From contig MNXM01000225.1 in assembly GCA_001872605.1 (NCBI GenBank), forward strand, positions 1-34,568: a DNA stretch of 34,568 bases, given 5' to 3'. The notes beneath the pieces are model-generated. The model made no database searches, was not told where the DNA came from, and saw only the letters and a list, made by a program, of their open reading frames with translations. The translations under genes were made by a program, and so were the position numbers. Positions 22,841-26,100 of this stretch are shown piece after piece. The DNA comes from Armatimonadetes bacterium CG2_30_59_28 (lineage in GTDB: Bacteria; Armatimonadota; Abditibacteriia; CG2-30-59-28). The stretch's first letter is position 1. Each line of letters starts with the position of its first letter.

Positions 22841-23962
22841 TCACCAGCTCTTCGTCAGGCTGATAGTGTGCAGGTCGGCATCGCCGAAAAGTGGTGCGAG
22901 GTCGTCCTGCTCGAAGTCCTTCACGAAGGCGTACTCCACCTTCCAGTCATTGTTGGTGTAGCTGAAGCCGAGAGTCGGGTTTCCTTCATGCGATCCGGCG
23001 CGCAGTTCCCATTGGTCGCCAGCCTTCACTTCTGCCCCGAAGTTCAGCCCCTCATCGCGGTACGCGAAGGAATCTGAGGTCAGCTTCCGCTTGAACCACT
23101 CACCGGCGAGTGTCACCTTGTCGTTGGGATGATAGGCGAACCCCACGTCATAGTCCACTTGGTCAAAGTGATCAGTCGCGTCAGCAGCCACGAACCCCGG
23201 AAGGGTGATAGTTGCGCGCTGATCCGACGCGGTCAGGACCGCCCCGAAGTCCCACTGGTCATCCAACTCGTGTTGCACAGCAACACGGAACTTCGGCGTG
23301 ATGACGCTGTCGCTGTCCGCCTCGGCGACCTCCGTCATCGGCCCAACGGGGAAAGAAATCGGCGCATACACGCGGGTCCTGCTGTTGCGCAGGGCGGTGG
23401 AAATTCCGAGAGCTGTCTTCTCGGTGATGAAGAAACCGTAACCCAGATAGACCCCCTGATCTTCCATCTGAATCTGCGTCGGCACTCCGGGAGGAGCGCC
23501 CGTAATTGATACCCCGCCACGGTTGGAGTCCAGATTGAAGTAGACCAGTTGCAGCCCATCCTTGTGCTTCGTCCACTTCACCGGGAACTCATAGCGAAAC
23601 ATCGTGTAGTCCGCGTCCAGTCCGCCGTTAAAGCTGTAATTAGCGTAGACCACGTTCGCCTGCGGCTCCTCCAACCACGCCGCGTGCGCCGGATTGCGCG
23701 AATACGGGTCGACAACGACGCTGGAGATATTCCCCATTCCCATCGTGCGGACACTGGCGAAAGTCAACGCCTGCGGAGCGGAAAATATCTCCGGTCCGGG
23801 AGGCAACGTAATCTGGGCGCGCCCATTTCCCACCAAGCCCGTCACCGCCACCGCCGCCCAAGCCAGTACTGAAACTCTCCTGCTTCTCAACCTGCTACCC
23901 CCATTGCTGTGCTGGATTGCTGCATTCACTTGCCACTCGAATGGTGAGGATAACCGCTGCAT
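22841..23962 (-). CDS. Outer-membrane beta-barrel protein (PorV/FadL-like), hypothetical
   Basis: Signal-like LAWAAVAVTGLVGNGRAQ, early GMGNISSVVVDPYSRNPAHAAW, alternating amphipathic strands, C-terminal LHTISLTKSW ending in an aromatic residue. Confidence 0.7.
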   Translation of the reverse strand: MQRLSSPFEWQVNAAIQHSNGGSRLRSRRVSVLAWAAVAVTGLVGNGRAQITLPPGPEIFSAPQALTFASVRTMGMGNISSVVVDPYSRNPAHAAWLEEPQANVVYANYSFNGGLDADYTMFRYEFPVKWTKHKDGLQLVYFNLDSNRGGVSITGAPPGVPTQIQMEDQGVYLGYGFFITEKTALGISTALRNSRTRVYAPISFPVGPMTEVAEADSDSVITPKFRVAVQHELDDQWDFGAVLTASDQRATITLPGFVAADATDHFDQVDYDVGFAYHPNDKVTLAGEWFKRKLTSDSFAYRDEGLNFGAEVKAGDQWELRAGSHEGNPTLGFSYTNNDWKVEYAFVKDFEQDDLAPLFGDADLHTISLTKSW

Positions 23963-23991
23963 ATACCAAAGTCAAGGAGAATGATGAGTGA

Positions 23992-24237
23992 CTGAAGTTC
24001 CAGCATAAGGTTCGACGCCCACGATTTCAAATCGGGGGAGCCTCACGTTCTCGCTACAAGTGCTGTCGTACTGCTTTTTTGGGTTTGGCGACCATCCCCT
24101 TCCGACCTAATGCCGGAAGGGGATGGTCGCCAAACCCAGGAAGTGGGTGGAAAACGAATGTAGGCTAATTGTGAGGCTCCTCCGATATGAAATCGTGGGC
24201 GTCCCGGCAAAGTTTCGTTCTTATGCTGGAATTTCAG
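23992..24237. repeat. ~246-bp three-tier nested inverted repeat (MITE-like/palindromic element)
   Basis: Outer arms 23992-24009/24220-24237 (17/18 match); middle arms 24014-24046/24171-24203 (31/33 match); inner arms 24081-24104/24114-24137 (24/24 match), 9-nt loop. Confidence 0.85.
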
Positions 24238-24879
24238 ATAAGTGAGAAGGAGGTTTCCCTCCCCTGCGAGTCTCCTCAATAGTGTTTGCGTGTGGGGAGG
24301 ATTCCATCTGCCACGCCAACGTTCGCCAAATTCATCCTGCGATCCCAGGCATTCCCCCCATCAGAAATGCGGAATTTGGGGTAGAGACTGCGTCCCTGCG
24401 GACGCCCGTATGGGCGGAATGTATCTGCGGAGTCGTTGCCTCTACCTGCAAACCCCGCGCCTCTGCTGGCAAAGCCTCAGCCTCTGCTGATAGCGTGTTT
24501 GCCTGCGGCATTTTCCCATTTCTGACGGGTTTTGGGTTTATACTCCTCCGTGAGTTGCAGGTTGGGTTCCAGCGCAAGGTTGCGCAACGTCTCCAGCCGC
24601 ATCCTGGCCGCCCTCCAGAAGGAGTGTCTTACGACCTGAGAAAACAACCAAACAACGTCAGGTGCCCCGACTTCGCGTTGGGACGAGGATCGCATCAGTC
24701 AACGGACTGGGATATAGCACAGCGCGCAAGAGCGCAACTTTGGAGTGCGGTGGCAGCGACCCCGGTTTGACTTCCCTCCCTGCGTTTGTTACACTTCCCG
24801 CGTTCTTCTGCACGCTTGTGTCTGCTCGAGCAGATGCCTGTCATATTCGTTCACGGTTTGATCCTCGGGACACGTTGGC

Positions 24880-26100
24880 ATGTTCTTCTTCATTCCCTAC
24901 GGCACCGACCGGCCTGCCCGGAGTTTTCCCTTCATCACGTACACCCTCATCGCGATCAACGTCATCGTGTTTGCCTGGCAATACGGGGTGTCTAATTCCG
25001 ATGCTGTGATGGATCGCTACGCCTTTATCCCCAACCAACTGAACGGCATGTCATGGTTTACCTACATGTTCCTGCACGGGGGGTTGAGTCACCTTGCCGG
25101 CAACATGCTCTACCTGTGGCTTTTCGGTTGCGCGCTGGAGTGTGCGCTGGGTTGGTGGATATTCCTGCCTACCTACCTGCTATCCGGCTGCGTGGCGATG
25201 ATGCTGCACTACAGCATCGTCATGGCCACCGATCCGGTCGGCGCGAATACCCACCTGGTGGGCGCCTCCGGCGCCATTGCCGGGCTGCTTGGCATGTACG
25301 CTCTGCGCTTCTATCAAACCCGAATCCGCATGTGGTATTTCGTTTTCCTTCTGTTTTTCATCCGCTGGGGGAAGTTCGAGATTGGCTCCGTGTGGTTCAT
25401 CGCAATATGGATAGCGCAACAGATTTTCGGCGCGGCGATGAGTGCATGGTCTCCCGACGTTGGCTCCCATATTGCCTACTGGACTCACATCGGTGGATTT
25501 GGGCTGGGGATGCTGTACGCTCTACTCATCAACCTTCAGAGCGAGGGGAAATCAGAGTACGTCCTTGCCGACGCAGTGTACGCCCTCGACCGCCAGGACT
25601 ATCGCAGGGCTCTTCAGTTGTCCGGAGAAGTGGTTAAACGAGAACCGGCGAACTCTGAGGCGCGTCTCGTTCACGTCCGTTCCGGGATGCACACGCGGCC
25701 CTTCGAGGATTTCATACCTGAGTATGAATCGCTGATGAAGGACAGCCTGCAGAAGCACAACCTCGAGTTGGCGCAGGCGCTGTACACGGAACTGGAGTCG
25801 CTGTATCCCACTAACGGTATGGATTCGCGATTGCGCCTCGCAATCGCGACGTGTCTCGCCCAGCTTGGGGACCATGCAGGCGCCGTTCGAGTTCTCCAGC
25901 GAATTATCCAGGAGGCGCCCAACAGCGCGGAAGCGGAGACGGCAACGCTGAGGTACGCTCAACTGTTAATTGAGCAACTGGGACGCCCGAAAGAGGCCGC
26001 CGATGCACTCCGCCACTTTGTGGTGCGCTACCCGAACAGCCAGTGGAAGGATTTCGCAGAACAACTGCTGGCTAAGGCGCGTCAGGCGATGAGAAAGTAA
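24880..26100 (+). CDS. Rhomboid family intramembrane serine protease with C-terminal TPR region
   Basis: FLHGGLSHLAGNMLYLWLFG, HLVGASGAIAGLLGMYALRF (catalytic GxSG), YWTHIGGFGLGMLYAL (catalytic His), TPR-like C-terminus. Confidence 0.93.
   Translation: MFFFIPYGTDRPARSFPFITYTLIAINVIVFAWQYGVSNSDAVMDRYAFIPNQLNGMSWFTYMFLHGGLSHLAGNMLYLWLFGCALECALGWWIFLPTYLLSGCVAMMLHYSIVMATDPVGANTHLVGASGAIAGLLGMYALRFYQTRIRMWYFVFLLFFIRWGKFEIGSVWFIAIWIAQQIFGAAMSAWSPDVGSHIAYWTHIGGFGLGMLYALLINLQSEGKSEYVLADAVYALDRQDYRRALQLSGEVVKREPANSEARLVHVRSGMHTRPFEDFIPEYESLMKDSLQKHNLELAQALYTELESLYPTNGMDSRLRLAIATCLAQLGDHAGAVRVLQRIIQEAPNSAEAETATLRYAQLLIEQLGRPKEAADALRHFVVRYPNSQWKDFAEQLLAKARQAMRK

Follow-up and report, generated by a model that had tools for sequence, protein, structure and literature searches.

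Prokaryotic Mutator-like (p-MULT) transposases were described by Guerillot et al. in 2014 (PMC3942029). For elements of the TnGBS/ISLre2 group and some of the ISKra4 group, insertion takes place 15-17 bases upstream of the -35 element of sigmaA promoters, and p-MULT targeting has been proposed to involve contact with the initiation complex of RNA polymerase (PMC3942029). The p-MULT elements have 8-9-bp repeats and inverted repeats of 18-39 bp with a terminal cytosine, and near-perfect inverted repeats lead to insertion in either orientation (PMC3942029). In the open-access literature such measurement of promoter distance by bacterial transposition is known only for Mutator-like elements that carry their transposase, and we found no MITE with this kind of promoter targeting described there.

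The window, i.e. the whole 34,568-nt stretch of DNA analysed here, contains a complete 246-bp non-coding copy of a multi-copy element with conserved ends at 23992-24237 (no strand assigned). We conclude that this is a MITE and not a structured RNA, and that it is very probably (with a probability of roughly 0.8) a non-autonomous, promoter-targeted element moved in trans by a Mutator-like transposase of the TnGBS/ISLre2 or ISKra4 type. We prefer Mutator-like mobilization because the targeting has been published for these two groups, and because 8-9-bp duplications and the terminal C are also held in common. Every published p-MULT feature that does not need the transposase itself is found in the element.

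The element is built from three inverted repeats. The outermost, 23992-24009/24220-24237 (18 bp, 94% identity, centre 24114.5), provides the terminal inverted repeats (TIRs), the left reading CTGAAGTTCCAGCATAAG on the plus strand and the right CTGAAATTCCAGCATAAG on the minus strand. Within these lie a middle pair at 24014-24046 (plus)/24171-24203 (minus) (33 bp, 94% identity, centre 24108.5), the left arm of which contains a small hairpin of the family, GACGCCCACGATTTCAAATCGGGGG, and an inner stem at 24080-24104 (plus)/24114-24138 (minus) that is perfect over 25 bp (100% identity, centre 24109), with a left arm identical in a sibling copy on contig C29. A sequence-only reading of this DNA had recognised the three pairs and the perfection of the inner arms, and both are real; the inner length is 25 and not 24 bp, and the centre is not shared by all three, since that of the outer pair is displaced by 6 bp. 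That reading had also seen no clear target-site duplication. One is present over 8 bp with one mismatch, ATGAGTGA at 23984-23991 and ATAAGTGA at 24238-24245 (both plus strand). No ORF reaching 80 aa lies within 23992-24237. The middle arm and the TIR together make a weak outward promoter-like site, TTGAAA-17-TATGCT (24030-24002, minus strand). A second long palindrome is present in the window at 60-93/192-225 (34-bp arms, 97% identity); since both of its arms recur on contig C270 of the same genome (L011, approximately 1667-1820), directly downstream of an 86-bp copy of the MITE, it represents another repeat family.

The 18-bp outer arms had been proposed as TIRs of a non-autonomous element, and this is borne out by the copies, the terminal repeats and the target duplications; the suggested search of the source genome and its relatives returned many copies with conserved ends. 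The genome of origin (G000, Armatimonadota; 5.49 Mb in 344 contigs) has a full-length sibling at C29:2053-2299 that is 93% identical, together with many partial matches to the 246-bp element. The TIR end CTGAAATTCCAGCATAAG gives 36 matches in this genome at ≤2 mismatches, compared with 1 for the reversed control. Full copies fall into size classes of 246-247, 84-86, 256 and 304-306 bp, with common ends and differing palindromic interiors, and over the whole family the elements are 71-306 bp long and gene-less. Identity between the two flanks peaks only at 8 bp, at 52% compared with 27% for mismatched pairs (23-35% at other lengths). Contigs of this genome often stop inside an element, as expected of repeats in a draft assembly. 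Its recurrence at many sites, with target duplications, makes an assembly chimera unlikely. The interiors are modular, with palindromic cassettes and tandem units shared and reshuffled among copies and genera (L025, L029, L035, L037, L059). One 306-bp copy (L035:1212-1517, on C321) has in-register promoters at both ends and lacks a target duplication; it probably arose by recombination between two copies.

The family extends to a distant relative, G021, that belongs to another family of the same phylum and was first flagged with two copies by a phylum-wide scan. A looser pattern finds about 167 TIR ends there, compared with 2 for the control. Around 60 sites were retrieved and 39 full-length copies were scored for promoter register. 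These elements are about 238 bp long, their mean column identity is 90%, and flank identity peaks only at 9 bp (72%; 27-34% at other lengths). Contigs C45, C75, C89 and C191 of G021 break about 110 nt from the TIR, near the middle of the element, which is the signature of an assembly break at a repeat. Copies are also present in G001, which appears to belong to the same family as the window genome and to another genus; an exact match to the TIR end in L090 (JACQGJ010000045.1, an Armatimonadetes MAG) has coordinates equal to those of the G001 match. In GTDB contigs a TIR scan returned 23 stretches, a number not much higher than that estimated by chance (~7), and most of them belong to unrelated phyla. 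The same scan of viral contigs gave 15 stretches, among which no two TIRs were convincingly paired at the spacing of an element, and plasmid and phage collections had no match to the 246-bp element.

The window copy sits between two divergent genes, upstream of the predicted promoter of one of them. A -35 box, TTGACT (23970-23975, minus strand), begins 16 nt beyond the left TIR and is separated by a 17-nt spacer from a -10 box, TATCCT (23947-23952, minus strand). This sigma70-type match, TTGACT-17-TATCCT (23975-23947), was also picked up by an independent consensus scan. The gene behind it (22841-23893, minus strand), with a TTG start assigned from the G001 orthologue, has a weak match to an outer-membrane beta-barrel that falls under the Pfam cut-off. 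Its orthologue in G001 has no element upstream but is paired with a different right-hand gene, which makes that locus a weak candidate for an empty site. The divergent neighbour in the window (24880-26100, plus strand) encodes a rhomboid and TPR protein.

The spacing at the window copy is a property of the family. We define the index as the position, counted outward from the TIR end, at which the -35 box begins, and we take consensus matches as in-register promoters. For the own genome and G001 combined, 15 of 46 ends have TTGAC within 5-30 nt; random places would give 1.3, and none of 500 trials exceeded 5. Of the 46 ends, 10 have it at index 16 and 2 at 17. Scored -35/-10 pairs occur at index 16 at 12 of 43 own-genome ends (0 expected), and at index 17 at 27 of 120 ends in G021 (0.12 expected), where the TTGAC peak lies at 17 and the -10 peak at 40. 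At least one end has an in-register promoter in 25 of the 39 full-length G021 copies, compared with 0.6 expected (0.8% per random end); none is present in the remaining 14, nor in several own-genome copies. There is an end bias of 18:6 in G021 (p = 0.02), with both ends and both orientations occurring. In a minority of ends the -35 box lies roughly a helical turn closer, at index 5-6, or else at 29 (own-genome L002, L033, L040 and L170; G001 L059 and L064).

The index follows the length of the duplication. An 8-bp duplication, the length found in the own genome and in one G001 copy, goes with index 16 in eight of nine elements from the two sets (the other has 15); a 9-bp duplication, which is mostly that of G021, goes with 17 in 17 of 22; and a 10-bp duplication is found with 17 and with 18, in one element each. 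Thus the fixed quantity is the distance from the cut to the promoter, 8 bp. The copies, their ends and duplications, and the fixed register to promoter-like sequences are all apparent from sequence comparison. Such an almost exactly fixed distance upstream of predicted promoters, in dozens to hundreds of copies and in two distant bacteria, indicates a transposase that would aim at promoters or at bound RNA polymerase. The sequence-only reading was correct in proposing a MITE, and was silent on this register.

An autonomous partner should have the end sequence CTGRRATTCCRGCATAAG. Searches of the own genome and relatives, in drafts that break at repeats, with the DDE_Tnp_1, ISKra4 and ISLre2 models and by protein turned up no autonomous element bounded by these ends; the ISLre2 model gave nothing over cut-off in 25 genomes. 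Transposases of PF01609, ISKra4, ISH6 and IS256 type in the own genome or G021 have different ends where these are readable, or no such TIRs nearby. Candidates rejected on this basis are the PF01609 transposases of the own genome and relatives, the ISKra4-like fragments at C20/C296 (with ends GTGTGCATAATCC...), the IS256 of G021 and the ISH6-family transposase at C318 (with ends GGCTTTGTCCCATAGTTGAGAGATTTG). The last (p-MULT 2; 456 aa, 437 bits) is found at C318 (L252/L254) and C106 (L255), and is a bacterial example of a family that is almost wholly archaeal as published. Incomplete drafts breaking at repeats may hide the partner, or it may have been lost.

Folded as RNA, 271 nt covering the element reach -161 kcal/mol on the plus strand and -149 kcal/mol on the minus strand (z of -15.5 and -16.4), and none of 200 plus-strand shuffles folds as low, so the suggestion that both strands be folded gave structures far more stable than shuffled sequence. 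This extreme stability would be consistent with a structured RNA or attenuator transcribed from between the genes, its repeat ends being incidental, as would one compensatory change of A-T to C-G between the two full-length copies (window and C29), though that change may equally stem from template switching within the quasi-palindrome. Yet the compensatory changes looked for as a sign of RNA function do not exceed the control: for the related 238-bp element of G021 (38 copies) the covariation term is -0.12 kcal/mol and 5 of 69 pairs have any double change, and covariation in the small internal hairpin common to the own-genome copies is not above that of shuffled controls. An Rfam scan of the window found no family, the element separates divergent genes and precedes the predicted promoter of one, and its ends, duplications and copy number are typical of a transposable element; we therefore give a structured RNA almost no weight. 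Nor is the palindrome, which the earlier reading had judged far larger than a rho-independent terminator, a terminator of that kind, for which a GC stem with a following T run 3' of a gene would be expected: it is placed between two divergent genes, and a terminator scan found none in the element.

Two further readings accept the repeats and explain the register or the enzyme differently. In one, a host activator binds the TIR and copies are kept only about 61 bp upstream of the start site, so that the register would result from selection. Index 16 places the TIR centre near -61, which we take to be the classical class I activator position, and the few own-genome ends at index 5-6 lie one helical turn closer. 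However, the distance from TIR to promoter is not constant, changing from 16 to 17 as the duplication lengthens from 8 to 9 bp, and it is the cut site that is fixed; a register that tracks duplication length is predicted by target choice and not by a regulator site. Many copies moreover have no in-register promoter, both ends and both orientations occur, and a transposase family with such a target preference is already known (PMC3942029). Selection for an activator site is thus highly improbable. The other keeps the promoter-targeted MITE and ascribes its movement to a DDE enzyme that does not belong to the Mutator superfamily (e.g. IS4/IS50-like), or to a quite unknown enzyme. Ends that begin CTGA and 8-9-bp duplications are also properties of the IS4/IS50 group, and the missing autonomous partner would be in keeping with this. 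But G021, the genome with most copies, has zero matches to PF01609 (DDE_Tnp_1), which argues against an IS4-type partner, and the accessible literature describes a fixed promoter distance for no families other than the Mutator-like ones; we consider a non-Mutator enzyme unlikely. It is possible, though doubtful, that a transposase lineage of Armatimonadota not described before, perhaps outside the known promoter-targeting Mutator-like families, measures 8 bp from the -35 box or from the upstream edge of the polymerase, and was amplified independently in at least two lineages.

In the mechanism we propose for mobilization by a Mutator-like enzyme, a transposase supplied in trans would recognise the 18-bp ends and position its staggered cut so that the promoter-proximal edge lies 8 bp before the -35 hexamer of a promoter of sigma70 type. 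Insertion would leave a target duplication of 8 or 9 bp, its length varying on the promoter-distal side of the cut. The enzyme would be a prokaryotic Mutator-like transposase (TnGBS/ISLre2 or ISKra4 type) that probably finds its site via promoter-bound RNA polymerase, and not via the -35 DNA alone. The nested palindromes would be inherited baggage of the interior, probably from template switching or inverted duplication, and nothing points to an RNA role of their own. Insertion upstream of an intact promoter would spare genes, and so offer a low-cost niche.

The roughly 167 ends of a gene-less family in one genome make up a large natural dataset of insertion sites. The constant 8 bp that separate the promoter-proximal cut and the -35 box make targeting via bound RNA polymerase directly testable, and the elements could be used to locate promoters in this poorly cultured phylum.

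The closest likeness is to TnGBS/ISLre2 (p-MULT 3), which share with the MITE the 8-9-bp duplication, the terminal C and an inverted repeat length within 18-39 bp (PMC3942029). These insert 15-17 bases upstream of the -35 element with a peak at 16, compared with MITE peaks of 16 (own genome) and 17 (G021), and they too have some orientation bias (18:6 for the MITE in G021). By contrast, those elements, ISs and ICEs, encode their own transposase, and ISLre2 is mostly found in Firmicutes, whereas the MITE is a gene-less element of 71-306 bp in Armatimonadota for which no homologous transposase with matching ends was found. The ISKra4 group (p-MULT 4) likewise inserts upstream of promoters, with either end promoter-proximal when the inverted repeats are near-perfect (PMC3942029); unlike the MITE it encodes a transposase, and the ISKra4-like fragments of the own genome have the other ends given above. 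The bacterial MITEs Correia, MITEAba12, Chunjie and QMITE resemble the element in being small, non-coding and multi-copy, with TIRs, a target duplication and a stable fold, and differ, in the passages of the review consulted (PMC10969869), in a preference for AT-rich or intergenic sequence and in having internal promoters. Those passages describe no fixed distance to a host promoter for bacterial MITEs, whereas here the host promoter lies outside the element in a fixed register. As with yeast Ty3 at Pol III promoters, an analogy taken from PMC3942029, integration would be placed by the transcription initiation machinery, but Ty3 uses a eukaryotic retrotransposon integrase and the analogy is functional only. 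What is new is the kind of host, the gene-less state and the high amplification; the mode of action is like that of the published class.
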